Virus record (IMG/VR): IMGVR_UViG_3300020473_000156
Location: 1 to 20,825 of that record
Origin: a virus
Direction: 5' to 3' (one strand)
DNA: 20,825 bases
In this document: in pieces, positions 365-20,825 of the stretch
Layout: each line of letters begins with the position of its first letter
How positions within the stretch are numbered: position 1 is the first letter of the stretch
Made by a program: the position numbers and the translations under genes
The notes under the pieces: generated by a model
The model's input: only the letters and a program-made list of their open reading frames with translations
Told to the model about the DNA's origin: nothing
Database searches by the model: none

Positions 365-1047
365 TTCTTCTTAGTGGGTTGTTTTTGTTTATCTTGTGCT
401 GATAAAACAGCAATTGGCACTACATCATTACAAAGTGAGACAAAATCAGTTCCCGGTTTAAGTGTAAAACCTCTTTGCATGAATCTTGTGCAGTTATCTA
501 TGCGAACAAGCTCATAATCGAGCCGTTGTTTTTGTAATTCCTTCTCAGCAATCTTTTTACATATATCAACAGACTTTCTATCTAGTGGTACCATGAAAGA
601 CATCTGTACTCCCCAGTTATGAGTTATATTATAAGACTCAGGATCGTACGGTTTACCTTCAGTACCTAGATAATAAGGGGAAAGGCTCATAACGGGACCG
701 TTACAAACCACTCCCCTACCGTATTGTTGCCGTGAAACTCCAGAATTGTTCTGGAATTGAACAGCTTGATTGGTTACATTTCCTGTCGCAGCAGCTGAAG
801 TCTGAGGGTTTAACACTGTATTCCCATCTTCAGCTTTAACTGGTACCCCTGCTCCTATTGAGAGAAGACTGACAAGGAAGTAGTTAGCGAAGTTGTGTCT
901 ATTGTTCTGTTTATATCTGTCACTTCGATTACTCCTGCAGCTCTGTTCACTATTTCTAGTTGAAAGTTCTGACCGGGAGTTGTTATATCGAAATTGGTTG
1001 CATGATCGTTTATATGACCTGAAGGGGTTATATTGTGACCAGTCCAA
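361..1047 (-). CDS. Exported Cys-containing phage protein; start codon unresolved
   Basis: The reliable part begins near residue 52. NYFLVSLLSIGAGVPVKAED looks like a signal peptide with cleavage after VKA. Next comes a polar stretch around ATGNVTNQAVQFQNN, and then a domain with Cys at about 115, 162, 186 and 206; the C-terminus is Lys-rich. Proteins of this pattern follow a second small exported protein in marine cyanophages, as here. The first about 64 codons overlap the upstream gene in a frame one base back. The only standard start in this frame is TTG at 1047, preceded 12 nt away by GGAGG. There is no ATG, GTG or TTG close to the signal peptide. Residues 1-50 are rich in Arg, Asn and Ser and look like an out-of-frame reading of the neighbour. 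The true start may be that TTG, a frameshift product, or a start lost by an indel. Confidence 0.6.
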   Translation of the reverse strand: MDWSQYNPFRSYKRSCNQFRYNNSRSELSTRNSEQSCRSNRSDRYKQNNRHNFANYFLVSLLSIGAGVPVKAEDGNTVLNPQTSAAATGNVTNQAVQFQNNSGVSRQQYGRGVVCNGPVMSLSPYYLGTEGKPYDPESYNITHNWGVQMSFMVPLDRKSVDICKKIAEKELQKQRLDYELVRIDNCTRFMQRGFTLKPGTDFVSLCNDVVPIAVLSAQDKQKQPTKKK

Positions 1048-1211
1048 CTGGAATAATCGCCTCCGTATACTGTGGTTTGTATGGTTTCTACGATTTGTTG
1101 TGTAGAGTTTGTAGTACTATTCATACTACCTTGGGTGAAAGCAGGGGTGACTGTATTTGCTCTAGCTGCAGCTGGAAATAGTAGCAGCAAAAATAGTAAA
1201 TACTTGTTCAT
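855..1211 (-). CDS. Exported 118-aa phage protein
   Basis: MNKYLLFLLLLFPAAARA is a textbook signal peptide: Lys at position 3, a Leu-rich core and a cleavage site after ARA. The mature part is polar, rich in Thr, Ser and Asn, and probably beta-structured. It contains SWTGHNITPSGHI and ends in TSLSVFSQ, a C-terminal pattern I recall from small cyanophage proteins. Its ATG overlaps the TGA of the holin-like gene (ATGA), showing coupled translation. The 3' end is overlapped by the next exported protein's frame over 193 nt, which is unusual in this otherwise tightly but shortly overlapping operon. Function is unknown. Export and location next to a holin-like gene suggest a role in the periplasm or outer envelope, in lysis or adsorption. 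Confidence 0.75.
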   Translation of the reverse strand: MNKYLLFLLLLFPAAARANTVTPAFTQGSMNSTTNSTQQIVETIQTTVYGGDYSSWTGHNITPSGHINDHATNFDITTPGQNFQLEIVNRAAGVIEVTDINRTIDTTSLTTSLSVFSQ

Positions 1212-1963: not shown

Positions 1964-3025
1964 TTAAGTATTATTTTCCCAAATATCAAATGAAGGTCTC
2001 CCCCATTGTCCGTAAGTTTCATCACCTACAGGTGGTTGGATAGGGGTAAAATCTAGAGTGTTCACATACGACCAAAACGGACTATTAAATTTTGAGCCTG
2101 TTTTGTAATGCCATAAGACAAAGTTTGCAATTGAATCAACTTCTTTATGTAGCAAATGCAAGCATTGAGGAATATCTACTTTATTGATAAAACGATCATA
2201 TCCAACCCTTGCAATATATAAATATAGACCTGTAGCTGTTGCCTCAAGTGGTTCAATAAATGCACATTGATTACCATTTAATAATGTACGTTCACCAACG
2301 AATGGATTGAAAGAACAGTAGTTATCAAACTTCATTGAATGTTCTATTTCATTTACTCCAAAGCGTTCTTGAAAGTCTTTTGTTGCTTCTTCTTTAGAAG
2401 TTAACTCACAATTATATAAATAACCTAAGCTTAATTTATCTTCAATAGGAACTACAAAAGTCCAACCATTAGGAGTTGCTTGTGCTTCTGTCCAAAGCAT
2501 TTCTTTTTTTGGAAGGCTTGCAAGTAAAACAGAATTAATAGGGTTGACAATAGTATCTAAGTTCTCTTTGTCTCTAGCCTTTCGACCACGACAATCAATA
2601 ATAAAATCAGCGTCAATCTCTTTTTCTGGATCAGTTATTTCTTGTTCTATAACATTAAACTTTCCACTAGATAAAACAGCATCACTTAATTTTTTCGGAG
2701 TGTAGTGAATCGATACTTGATCCATTGAGTAGAAGTCATGAAAAAATTCTTCTTTCTTTGTTCCCCATCTTTTATATAATATTCCTGTTTTTAATGTTGC
2801 TCCAATCTTGTTGTTGTACCAATTACAACCTAAAGAATTAGATAATAATTTAGCTACAGGAATAGTTGTTCCCTGACCTACTCGTTCAATTGGGTGGTGC
2901 TCTGAATCGTGATATAAATCAATCTCTAACTCTGGTAAATACTGCCTAAAATGTAATGCACTTAGACAACCAGCATTTCCTGCACCAATAACAGCTAATT
3001 TATAAGCCTTTTGCTGCTGGATCAT
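1964..3025 (-). CDS. FAD-dependent (tryptophan-type) halogenase-like protein
   Basis: 353 aa. An N-terminal dinucleotide-binding motif, AVIGAGNAGCLSA with G14, G16 and G19, binds FAD. ERVGQGTTIP at about 47-56 matches the family's VGEgt-P motif. Lys79 in LKTGILYKRW lines up with the catalytic Lys of PrnA-type halogenases. GWTFVVP (187-193) stands where the family has GWxWxIP, with the second Trp changed to Phe. EPLEAT with Glu261 matches the PLE-S-T active-site motif, and a SPFW motif follows near 315. Flavin halogenases turn FADH2, O2 and halide into HOX, which a Lys directs onto a substrate. Classical members are about 500-540 aa, so this one is compact and may lack part of the substrate domain. 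The VirX1 halogenase of a marine cyanophage is a precedent. The start overlaps the 44-aa gene. Substrate is unknown, and a non-halogenating flavoprotein of the same fold is possible. Confidence 0.8.
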   Translation of the reverse strand: MIQQQKAYKLAVIGAGNAGCLSALHFRQYLPELEIDLYHDSEHHPIERVGQGTTIPVAKLLSNSLGCNWYNNKIGATLKTGILYKRWGTKKEEFFHDFYSMDQVSIHYTPKKLSDAVLSSGKFNVIEQEITDPEKEIDADFIIDCRGRKARDKENLDTIVNPINSVLLASLPKKEMLWTEAQATPNGWTFVVPIEDKLSLGYLYNCELTSKEEATKDFQERFGVNEIEHSMKFDNYCSFNPFVGERTLLNGNQCAFIEPLEATATGLYLYIARVGYDRFINKVDIPQCLHLLHKEVDSIANFVLWHYKTGSKFNSPFWSYVNTLDFTPIQPPVGDETYGQWGRPSFDIWENNT

Positions 3026-3148: not shown

Positions 3149-4171
3149 TTAAGATACGGGTAATGCATTGCTTGGGAATGTTCTGGTATTCCCTGGCCAT
3201 ATTATTCTAATTGCTCCTCCAGTACTATCTACATTTTGACCAGAACATTGAGCCGGAACAGCTACTGATCCGAATCCTCCACCGTAGGCATTGTCAGCAT
3301 TTGTGTAAAAATCATGATTATTATTAGGATCCATTTGACTTCTATTATTTGGTTCACCGTATTGCCCAGCATCTCCATCTCTACCACTTTGTCCATTTCC
3401 GCCTTGCTGACCGTCAACAGTACCGCCGGTTCCATTACCAGTACCAGTACCCTCAACTGAAGGATTTGCACCTCCTCCTGTTCCATATAAATGAGAGCCA
3501 CCGCCCCCACCAGAAGTAGTGCAAGCAGCGTGGTTACTTGCGTAATACATAGAAGATCCACCGCCAGCACCGTCATTTTGTCCATTACTCCCGTCTACTC
3601 CTTGGCTGCCACTTTGTGAGCCACCGGCACCAGCTCCACCATTACCAGGTTGAACAGTACCATTTCCGTCTATATATCCATACCCACCAGCTCCGCCACC
3701 AGCACCTCTTGAATAACTCCCCCAAGCAGAGGAAGTTGACCCACCAGCACCACCAGCACCTCCACCATCTCCAGTCCAACTACCACCAGTTTGGGCATTA
3801 CCAGATTGACCTTCAACAAGTATGTTTCCTGCTGCATCTTTGAACCATGTGTGACTTGGATTAGTGTTTTGAGCAAGGTTGGTTGTTTGGATTGCCGCTG
3901 CAACCTGAACAGCATAACTTGTGCCAGGAGAGACAGTTATATTATTCTTCCACCCTAATCCGGCACCACCTCCACCGTGAGGTGTTCCGTAGTTTCCATA
4001 CATTGCACCTCCACCAATACAGACAACCGAAATAGAAGTTACACCAGCAGGACATACCCAAGTAGTTGTATCACTAACCCATGTGTAATCTGAATGTCCA
4101 GAAGTAATAATGGCTTCAGTTCCTACATCTGGACCCCCACCCGCACCTAAGAGCATTTGTTGCATTGGCAT
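3149..4171 (-). CDS. Gly-rich tail-tip/adhesin-like protein
   Basis: 340 aa. The N-terminal domain, about residues 24-95, contains DYTWVSDTTTWVCPAGVTSISVV, a beta-sandwich pattern common at the start of Gly-rich phage tail proteins. About residues 120-270 are loaded with GGG, GAGG and GGAG runs mixed with Asn, Ser and Tyr, as in polyglycine-II type receptor-binding tips. The C-terminus, GGAIRIIWPGNTRTFPSN, is a closing motif I know from marine phage Gly-rich proteins. The ATG overlaps the fibre stop (TAATG), so it is made with the fibre, as T-even gp38-type adhesins follow gp37. It most likely tips or assists the fibre and recognises the host surface. A family match to gp38 is not claimed. 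Confidence 0.7.
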   Translation of the reverse strand: MPMQQMLLGAGGGPDVGTEAIITSGHSDYTWVSDTTTWVCPAGVTSISVVCIGGGAMYGNYGTPHGGGGAGLGWKNNITVSPGTSYAVQVAAAIQTTNLAQNTNPSHTWFKDAAGNILVEGQSGNAQTGGSWTGDGGGAGGAGGSTSSAWGSYSRGAGGGAGGYGYIDGNGTVQPGNGGAGAGGSQSGSQGVDGSNGQNDGAGGGSSMYYASNHAACTTSGGGGGSHLYGTGGGANPSVEGTGTGNGTGGTVDGQQGGNGQSGRDGDAGQYGEPNNRSQMDPNNNHDFYTNADNAYGGGFGSVAVPAQCSGQNVDSTGGAIRIIWPGNTRTFPSNALPVS

Positions 4172-6846
4172 TAGCTTAACCCCGCACCTGAGATGTAACA
4201 GGTAGTTCCATTAACAAATAATAGCGTTGCCATTCCCTTTTGAGCCAAAGTTCGATTACCTGTAGTTGCATCAGCTGAATTGTACATAGTTACACCACTT
4301 CCTTGAGTAATAGTTATGTTAGAAGTTCCGTGATTTAAAATAGTTACAGCATCACCCCCTGACGAATGAAAAACATTAGCTGGAACCGTTACATTGCCGT
4401 TGCAGCCAACATGCTTACCCGCATCTGATGCTACAAGCGTATAAGCTGAAGTTTGCCAATTCTGGGGTATACGTCTTACATCACCCTTATCATCGGTAAC
4501 TGATCCAGTTACGGTTACACCCGCCGCTGTAGTCGTTAATCTGATATTCCCCGAATTGTATAAATAAAGAGTACCCGCTGCCGTTCTATAAATGTCATAA
4601 ACAGAAGTGGTTCCATTATGTGAAGCTATAGACCAATCTCTATATTCTGCATTTCCATAATGGGTGAAGTGAGCATCCCCATCATCAGCTACATAAAATC
4701 TAAAACCAGTACCGACATTATCGTGATATGTCTCATTACCTATTCGACCATACCAGACATTACCATCATCACCAGAAATATTAATGACTGGTCCTGCACT
4801 ACCGTTGTCTGTGAATGAAGCTGAATTAGCGGAAACTGCACTAGCGGAAACTGTACCTGACACCGTAGCTCCAGCCGATGTGGTTTCTATTTTTTTAGTT
4901 CCGTCGTGATATAGCTCTACGGCTCCATCTTTTATAAAACTAGCAGCCGAATCATTTCCAAACTTTATATCAATATTTCCAGAAGCTCCAGTCTTATCAA
5001 TAGTAAAATTAGCTAGTCCGTTATGTTTTACATAAGTATGACCAGGTACACCAGTTAAATGATAAACCTCTAGATCTAAATCATTACCAAATCTAGCGTA
5101 AATATTATCGTTAAAAGCAATGCTTCCACTGAAGGTGCCACCACTTTTAGGCATCAAATTACCAACAGCTGTTACACCACCTTGCCAAGCACTACCGTTA
5201 TAAACTTGTAATTCATTAGAAGATGTATTAAAATATAAATCCCCAGCAGCTAGTGAGTTACTACCACCATCTGTAGAAGGAGCTGAAGAAGCTATTTGAT
5301 ATAAATCATTGAAATTATTAACGCTAGTAAGATTACCTGCAACTGTATTAACATTTGCTATTGAACCTCCAACGTTAGTAACATTAGTATTGTTATTAGC
5401 AACAGTTGTTACGTTAGCTGAAATACCAGCGACTGTAGTTACATTTGCAGAGATACCAGCAACTGTAGTTATATTCCCTGCGATACCTGCAACTGTTGTA
5501 ACTTCAGTTGCTTTAGGTGTTAATCTATGGAATGTATATTCATTTAATGTAGTAGTTGTTTCTACTAACATTCCAAAACCAGCTGCATAAGTAGTGTTTT
5601 GTGTTAAACCAGTTATGTTAACAGCCGTACCACCTACTGTCTGAGCAATACTATTATTACTTGTTACACCGCTTCCTGTAACTATATTTTCAGAAAGTGC
5701 TTTAATACTAACAATAGTGCCAGTACCATTATTTACATCAGGGTTAGCGTTTGGGAAATGATTTTCACTTGCTATTGCAACAAAACCACCTACATCATCA
5801 ACAAGATCAATAATTCTATCATTAATAGCAGCAGTTGTAGCTATTGTTGTATCATTATCAGGAAAGGTATCACCATCTTTAATGGTATCCCCTGTGCTTA
5901 CATTAAAGTATCTAGCATCAGAAGCTGATGTTGTAAAAAATGTAGAATCATCAACACTATGTGCAGCTTGTTCAGCATTAGTTACTGCAATTGATGCATC
6001 CAAAGAAGTAGCTGTAGCATTACCTTGTAGATCACCAACAAATCTGGTAGCACTTAAATAACCTGTTAAAGGGTTATAGGTAAAAGTATTGTCAGTTTCT
6101 CCAGCTAATGAACCTGTAGCAGAACCTACAAATAAAGGATAATGTGTTGCATCTGTGCTAGTATCTTGCGTAACAGTAACAGTAGCCGCATTACCAGTTA
6201 GATCACCTGTAAATGTAGAAGCTGTGACTGTACCATCAAAAGTAGCTGCACCAGTAACATCTAATGTACCGGGTATATCTATATTACTAGTCCATTCAAC
6301 ATCACTACCATTTGAAGCTGTTTGTATTATTTGTCTAGCAGCACCATCTTGTAAATTACTTACTGGTAGTTCTGTAATCTTTGCAGTTATTCTATTCTCA
6401 ATTGCTTTAGTAGTAGCAATTCTAGTATCATCTGTTGTATACCACGTTTCGGTACTCTCTATTGTTTCATCACCTTCTGACCAAGCCTTACCTAATTTGT
6501 CATGTGCTTCTTGTGTTACATATAAATTCTGTAAAGCATTTTCATTTAAATCATTAGCTCGTATAGCTGAACCGGGGTAGAAAGTAGCTCTTAAAGCTTC
6601 ATCGTTTGTATCACGATAAAGCCTTATAGCTACTGAACTTTTTGGTGCTCCACCAGCTTCTTGATAAGTTGTAGCACCTCCTGAAGGAGCACTAAATCTT
6701 ATTGTAGTGGCATTATGTAAGGACCAGTTAGTTGTAATAACGCCTCCAAGACTTACTTTAATGTCTGTTTCGGCTAAATATGGGAATGTAAAAGAGTAAT
6801 CGACGGTGGAACCGTTACCCGTAAAAAGATTTTCAATTGTTGCCAT
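4171..6846 (-). CDS. gp17: Tail fibre protein (T7 gp17-like N-terminus)
   Basis: 891 aa, against about 553 in T7. Residues 1-135 carry the T7-type fibre attachment domain: ENLFTGNGSTVDYSFTFPYL, then RLYRDTNDEAL and the helix NENALQNLYVTQEAHDKLG. The shaft has several beta repeats, including a VxGDLxGNA type near 212-275 and a tandem 10-residue array at 450-509. A DLYFNTSSNELQVYNGSAW box lies at 536-554, and LYHDGTKKIETTSAGATVSG at 645-664 is typical of marine phage fibres. The last about 110 residues (from RRIPQNWQTSAYTL) form a separate terminal domain, probably receptor-facing. AAGG upstream of the ATG acts as a Shine-Dalgarno, 15 nt after the gp16-like gene. A Gly-rich adhesin-like gene follows with TAATG overlap. 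Confidence 0.9.
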   Translation of the reverse strand: MATIENLFTGNGSTVDYSFTFPYLAETDIKVSLGGVITTNWSLHNATTIRFSAPSGGATTYQEAGGAPKSSVAIRLYRDTNDEALRATFYPGSAIRANDLNENALQNLYVTQEAHDKLGKAWSEGDETIESTETWYTTDDTRIATTKAIENRITAKITELPVSNLQDGAARQIIQTASNGSDVEWTSNIDIPGTLDVTGAATFDGTVTASTFTGDLTGNAATVTVTQDTSTDATHYPLFVGSATGSLAGETDNTFTYNPLTGYLSATRFVGDLQGNATATSLDASIAVTNAEQAAHSVDDSTFFTTSASDARYFNVSTGDTIKDGDTFPDNDTTIATTAAINDRIIDLVDDVGGFVAIASENHFPNANPDVNNGTGTIVSIKALSENIVTGSGVTSNNSIAQTVGGTAVNITGLTQNTTYAAGFGMLVETTTTLNEYTFHRLTPKATEVTTVAGIAGNITTVAGISANVTTVAGISANVTTVANNNTNVTNVGGSIANVNTVAGNLTSVNNFNDLYQIASSAPSTDGGSNSLAAGDLYFNTSSNELQVYNGSAWQGGVTAVGNLMPKSGGTFSGSIAFNDNIYARFGNDLDLEVYHLTGVPGHTYVKHNGLANFTIDKTGASGNIDIKFGNDSAASFIKDGAVELYHDGTKKIETTSAGATVSGTVSASAVSANSASFTDNGSAGPVINISGDDGNVWYGRIGNETYHDNVGTGFRFYVADDGDAHFTHYGNAEYRDWSIASHNGTTSVYDIYRTAAGTLYLYNSGNIRLTTTAAGVTVTGSVTDDKGDVRRIPQNWQTSAYTLVASDAGKHVGCNGNVTVPANVFHSSGGDAVTILNHGTSNITITQGSGVTMYNSADATTGNRTLAQKGMATLLFVNGTTCYISGAGLS
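5320..5499 (-). repeat. Six tandem 30-bp (10-residue) repeats in the fibre shaft
   Basis: Residues 450-509 of the fibre repeat TTVAGISANV. The two central copies are identical at protein level and the outer four (TTVAGIAGNI, TTVANNNTNV, TNVGGSIANV, NTVAGNLTSV) have drifted. The regular Val/Ile spacing suits a beta-helix or trimeric beta-prism shaft. The DNA copies differ at third positions, so this is an old expansion, not a recent one. Confidence 0.8.
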
Positions 6847-20774: not shown

Positions 20775-20810
20775 TCAATACCTAAGCCCCGTTCCATGCT
20801 TAGGTTTCAT
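20775..20810 (-). other. Micro-ORF overlapping a hairpin, ahead of the YRG-motif gene
   Basis: An 11-codon frame, MKPKHGTGLRY, has its TGA built into the GAGGT Shine-Dalgarno of the next gene. Within it CCTAAGC and GCTTAGG (20781-20787 with 20798-20804) form a perfect 7-bp stem around a 10-nt loop. Upstream, its ATG is part of an ATGA that also ends an open frame reading ...SFWDA. A leader peptide, a coupling device or a leaky terminator (a T-run follows 8-9 nt after the stem) are all possible. Confidence 0.35.
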
Positions 20811-20825
20811 GCGTCCCAAAAGGAT

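Follow-up and report, generated by a model that had tools for sequence, protein, structure and literature searches.

A compact flavin-dependent halogenase gene paired with a glycine-rich tail-tip gene in marine phages, and a candidate tryptophan substrate in the tip protein

The window analysed here comprises the 20,825 bases of IMG/VR record IMGVR_UViG_3300020473_000156, in which the virion genes recognised by PHROG searches indicate a T7-like phage. Genes for the capsid, tail tubular proteins A and B, an internal virion protein and a tail fibre were recognised near the halogenase, in agreement with the T7-like assignment of a first-pass annotation, and the terminase small subunit was also recognised in the window. 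The capsid gene is closest to that of Prochlorococcus phage NATL1A-7 (76% DNA identity, 81% protein identity), the annotation of which shows no halogenase, and no cultured podovirus occurs among the halogenase matches listed. The halogenase open reading frame is intact, running for 353 codons from ATG to stop and filling positions 1964-3025 (3025 to 1964); the first-pass description of the gene is upheld with one correction, that it lies on the minus strand, the strand having been left unstated. The genes, the candidate substrate site and the residues of interest are as follows.

4171..6846, minus strand: tail-fibre gene, 891 aa, first of the module tail fibre, glycine-rich tip, halogenase (phrog_21412 tail fiber protein, 2.8e-40)
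3149..4171, minus strand: glycine-rich tail-tip protein, 340 aa, beginning MPMQQMLLG, directly upstream of the halogenase and its proposed substrate (phrog_4474, 4.7e-23)
3680..3739, minus strand: candidate substrate loop STSSAWGSYSRGAGGGAGGY, tip residues 145-164 (Trp/halogenase co-occurrence)
3722-3724, minus strand: codon of tip W150, candidate halogenated residue (Trp/halogenase co-occurrence)
1964..3025, minus strand: compact flavin-dependent halogenase gene, 353 aa (Pfam, PHROG, alignment and predicted structure)
2789-2791, minus strand: codon of halogenase K79 (alignment)
2738-2740 and 2732-2734, minus strand: codons of halogenase H96 and F98 (alignment)
2447-2467, minus strand: halogenase GWTFVVP, with G187, W188, F190 and P193 (motif)
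2252-2254 and 2243-2245, minus strand: codons of halogenase E258 and E261 in the EPLE motif (motif)
2003-2005, minus strand: codon of halogenase W341 (possible PrnA W455 counterpart)

The first-pass annotation had placed the enzyme among virion and lysis genes. The virion genes were recovered with PHROGs, but the small genes at 361-1958 matched only families of unknown function, which does not bear out the lysis label. Two open reading frames in this region (361-1047 and 855-1211, minus strand) share 193 bases, read in two frames that are both conserved in relatives, and the start of the shorter one resembles a signal peptide; the pair at 361-1211, which also matches only unknown-function families, could possibly be an embedded lysis pair of the Rz/Rz1 type. 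At the far end of the window (20781-20825, minus strand) a glutamine-II riboswitch aptamer (RF01704, 33.6 bits against a gathering threshold of 33) is cut by the contig end, and a 48-base stretch of this region is 94% identical to unannotated DNA in Prochlorococcus phages NATL2A-133 and P-SSP10. Judged from gene order, the halogenase would be expressed late.

Assignment of the 353-aa protein to the flavin-dependent halogenases was based on profile searches, motifs and a predicted structure. Pfam Trp_halogenase (PF04820) matched at 1.6e-32, scoring 113 bits where the cut-off is 21, and PHROG 2928 ('tryptophan halogenase') matched at 5.4e-67. Every motif named in the first-pass annotation was found: the GxGxxG motif for FAD (G14, G16, G19), K79, GWTFVVP and EPLE. 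The GxGxxG glycines are invariant across 48 aligned relatives, as are K79, W188, F190, E258 and E261. The canonical WxWxIP reads WTFVVP, with the first Trp and the Pro retained and the second Trp replaced by Phe; since this replacement, already seen in the first pass, occurs in all 48 relatives, Phe190 is a fixed trait of the clade rather than an oddity of one sequence. The residue after the PLE Glu is Ala, at the position of Ser347 in the EPLES motif of PrnA, in which the Glu is E346. The gene is under purifying selection (dN/dS 0.12-0.20 against relatives).

Relatives in IMG/VR numbered 22 by close pattern and at least 450 by profile, and halogenase genes were present in at least 82 phage records, for the most part of cyanobacterial phages. 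The small size of the protein, which the first-pass annotation had treated as unusual, is not new, because prnA genes of 1104-1167 bp are listed for cultured cyanomyoviruses (PMC3037559). The T4-GC212 'PrnA' genes of S-ShM2, S-SSM7 and S-SSM5 are likewise annotated as compact (1080-1167 bp), and the S-ShM2 halogenase (1080 bp) is 38% identical to that of the window. These cultured compact-halogenase phages differ in that a search with the tip protein, run without a positive control, gave no match in them, and in that the position of the gene varies: in S-ShM2 talC and fibre genes are close by, in S-SSM7 plastocyanin and nrdA. Recent capture of a cellular gene was also considered and rejected; cellular genome contigs gave one relative only, 37% identical and with unclear neighbours in an archaeal MAG, so no host source was found. 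That relative, L198 (PAZU01000039.1), lies on a contig of Euryarchaeota MAG SP67 which may itself be viral. A longer halogenase open reading frame of 548 aa was seen in L142 (2004-3650), where the Trp_halogenase match ends at residue 357 and the roughly 190 extra residues beyond it have no Pfam match.

A structure was predicted with AlphaFold2 from an alignment of 48 relatives (pLDDT 92.4, pTM 0.91). All 50 of the PDB matches listed for the model were flavin-dependent halogenases, to which residues 5-353 aligned over the full chain; Z was 38.0 for AbeH, the highest value, about 34 for PrnA and 30.3 for VirX1, over 336-348 residues, and 33.9 for MibH, over at least 336. In BFVD two halogenases were matched and the remaining matches were generic flavoproteins. 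The closest relatives are not plain flavin oxidoreductases, the outcome that the first-pass annotation had named as one that would refute its reading, and fold and conserved catalytic residues together support a flavin halogenase. K79 aligns with K79 of PrnA, and H96 and F98 with H101 and F103, which, with W455, we take to be the residues that hold the indole in PrnA. W341 would be the counterpart of W455 if the final 12 residues are aligned without gaps (the alignment ends at 353 and 467). PrnA, RebH, PyrH and AbeH belong to biosynthetic clusters and have free tryptophan as their substrate; they share with the phage protein the fold, K79, the H101/F103-like indole residues and the PLE Glu, and differ from it in sequence (18-21% identity) and in size, being longer by about 150-185 residues. 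The 353-aa protein lacks a large share of the C-terminal region with which PrnA holds the amino acid.

The nearest phage comparison is VirX1 of cyanophage Syn10 (PDB 6QGM), which shares the marine phage source, the catalytic Lys and Glu motifs and the fold (Z 30.3, 2.7 A over 336 residues, 21% identity). VirX1 differs in its length (530-531 aa), in the presence of the second Trp (GWVWNIP) and of Ser after PLE, and in gene context, since the Syn10 gene lies in a tandem halogenase pair with no annotated tail-fibre neighbour within 5 kb. According to a review (PMC8407142), VirX1 has an open active site, prefers iodide and accepts bulky substrates and many small aromatics. About 70 residues ahead of the DCRG strand, together with a large part of the C-terminus, are present in VirX1 and missing from the compact clade, from which we infer that the active site of the clade is more open.

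Gene neighbourhoods were compared across the halogenase clade, close relatives being defined by at least 65% identity. A glycine-rich open reading frame (22-37% Gly) lay directly upstream on the same strand in 19 of the 20 close-relative loci with coverage. In the distant clade (46-52% identity) a glycine-rich protein was encoded within 3 kb upstream at 22 of 33 loci, about a third being without one. By the same measure, none of 42 control loci (purM, 0/16; talC, 0/26) had such a neighbour, and the proposal that any gene near tips follows glycine-rich frames was rejected. The pairing was found across T7-like genomes, genomes in which the tail genes are of other kinds and the downstream genes are reversed, and L008, in which the tail-fibre protein is fused to the same glycine-rich domain; it was not found in the T4-like L015, where the halogenase is 70% identical and has no glycine-rich neighbour. 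The halogenase is up to 90% identical where the flanking genes drop to about 25%, so exchange of the halogenase/tip module between phages is likely. The start of the partner (MPIQQMLLG) recurs in numerous proteins whose genes come straight after those of tail fibres; among tips with this N-terminus and enough downstream sequence, a halogenase followed 17 of 30 glycine-rich ones and none of 11 others (p 8e-4).

In the window the glycine-rich protein adjoins the tail fibre, at 3149-4171 directly after the fibre gene, which is a feature of gp38-type adhesins. The gp38 adhesins of phages S16 and PP01 have glycine-rich motifs parted by loops, which in PP01 make the contact with the receptor (PMC12892980). 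The tip protein resembles them in being glycine-rich and encoded beside the tail fibre and differs in that its sequence matched no solved structure in the PDB; by analogy, its glycine-rich strands would carry receptor-contacting loops. Several features of the region are recorded separately. Where relatives have no halogenase, different genes occupy the position behind the tip. In L016 (6932-7375, phrog_7759), L017 (7559-7996), L094 and L118 a small gene of about 145-184 aa lies between tip and halogenase or replaces the halogenase; its likeness to a tail-fibre assembly chaperone is one of position only. Cys is higher in halogenase-bearing glycine-rich tips (1.28% versus 0.53%, p 0.003). A greater overall content of aromatic residues in halogenase-bearing tips was rejected, W, Y, F and H content showing no difference with and without the enzyme.

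Alignment of tips with and without a halogenase revealed one place at which Trp tracked the enzyme, at most 14 residues ahead of a GGGGAGGY-like motif that is itself conserved. The window for Trp was chosen on a discovery set, in which 16 of 18 tips with a halogenase and 1 of 13 without had Trp there (permutation p 0.0005 for the best Trp window across the entire tip alignment), and held-out and replicate sets agreed. Among held-out tips, Trp was present in all three with a halogenase (L133, L012 and L105) and, of those without, in 2 of 27 in one set, from which L058 had been removed as it does carry a halogenase, and in 1 of 13 in the other. Pooled glycine-rich tips had Trp at the site in 19 of 21 cases with the enzyme and 4 of 47 without. 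The statistics control for relatedness in part only: the counts were 11/13 versus 4/42 in clusters at 60% identity (p 8e-7) and 5/6 versus 1/20 at 50% (p 5e-4), and at 45% the test lost power (p 0.15). Exceptions were L008 and L011, which have a halogenase and no Trp at the site, and L072, L395, L044 and L067, which have the Trp and no detected halogenase; the records, some of the halogenase-free ones included, are fragments. The tip of L113, a record without a halogenase, is nearly the same as that of L008, and L368 has a Trp-bearing tip and no halogenase in a record that apparently ends after the tip. The tips contain further Trp and Tyr residues besides the candidate site.

The partner of the distant halogenase clade is a different glycine-rich protein of the MAIKxSGxxLSFSEI type, for which no relation to the first tip family was detected. 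All 21 halogenase-linked tips of this second family have Trp in a loop between two polyglycine runs (e.g. AEQNDWGDKNSA). Five halogenase-free relatives (L325, L326, L327, L399 and L400) have a loop of the same kind with no Trp in any of them, and several retain the conserved Trp of the domain preceding the loop. A halogenase profile search of the whole of these five records found none, with the positive control detected. At the loci inspected, 2OG-Fe(II) oxygenases usually lie between the second-family tip and the halogenase. One or more such genes (PF13640) occur beside glycine-rich tip genes and halogenases in L140 (2127-3908), L155 (2780-3998), L016 (9415-10008) and L017 (9501-10073), and by sequence resemblance also beside the halogenase-free tips of L325-L327. 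These oxygenases may hydroxylate or otherwise modify the same tip proteins, a hint of further tip modification beside the second family.

The reading that we prefer, with a probability of roughly 0.55, is that the compact flavin halogenase is functional and halogenates, post-translationally, the loop Trp (W150 in the window) of the glycine-rich tip encoded upstream. That several kinds of marine tailed phage use a dedicated protein halogenase to modify a Trp of their own receptor-binding tip is given about even odds from the comparative sequence evidence. Under the proposed mechanism, both proteins would be made late; with FADH2 from the host, the halide, whichever is used, would be oxidised by flavin and O2 to hypohalite, which K79 would relay while E261 aided activation of the indole. 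The active site, proposed to be open because the roughly 70 residues that precede the DCRG strand in PrnA and VirX1 are absent along with much of their C-terminus, would take a protein loop in place of free tryptophan, and the halogenated Trp might alter contact between tip and receptor or stabilise the tip. There is precedent for flavin halogenases acting on ribosomal peptides in MibH (Z 33.9) and in SrpI, which modifies a ribosomally made peptide (PMC10858898); these differ in belonging to peptide natural-product pathways with leader-bearing precursors and in acting on no virion proteins.

For cyanophage halogenases, a role in antibiotic protection or in altering the metabolites of the host has been proposed (PMC2984593, PMC10452541, PMC9964418). 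Along these lines the protein could be an auxiliary metabolic enzyme that halogenates free tryptophan or a small host metabolite during infection, with adjacency to the tip gene incidental. The tryptophan-halogenase fold, the catalytic residues and the range of small aromatics reported for VirX1 agree with such a role; it does not lead one to expect the glycine-rich neighbour or the Trp that accompanies the enzyme in two tip families, and the loss of much of the region by which PrnA holds the amino acid also argues against it, so that we regard it as unlikely. A second alternative, which we find similarly doubtful, is that recombination at a tail-fibre hot-spot moves the halogenase gene as a unit with a tip allele that has the Trp, and that the substrate is elsewhere, for example a different virion protein or a molecule on the host surface. 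The status of tail-tip regions as hot-spots of recombination, the varied occupants of the slot after the tip and the loss of significance at 45% clustering are consistent with this, but it is opposed by the persistence of the Trp rule at 50% and 60% clustering, by the same rule in an unrelated-looking second tip family whose halogenase clade is about 48% identical, and by the lack of a halogenase behind tips that are not glycine-rich at the same site. It is very improbable that the protein no longer halogenates and serves instead as a flavin enzyme of another kind or as a partner in the structure or assembly of the tip. The Phe in WxWxIP and the Ala at the PrnA Ser347 position would suit this, but it is hard to see why a protein that does not halogenate should keep K79 and E261 in all 48 relatives, and the top structural matches are halogenases throughout.

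The proposed halogenation of the tip Trp by the neighbouring enzyme is a narrower form of the first-pass interpretation, which is supported in part: its suggestion that a virion molecule might be halogenated gains strong comparative support and a specific candidate residue. For over 10 years cyanophage halogenases have figured among the auxiliary metabolic genes without identification of a natural substrate, and the question is now narrowed to one protein and one tryptophan that can be checked by mass spectrometry. The enzyme family is known, and the proposed job, halogenation of the phage's own tail-tip Trp, would be new; the literature searched on phage halogenases contained no link between the enzyme and a virion protein, and no such virion modification. 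If the proposal is true, this would be a natural case of a flavin halogenase acting on a virion protein, and phages would vary, by chemical modification, the residues in contact with the host, adding a new layer to host recognition.
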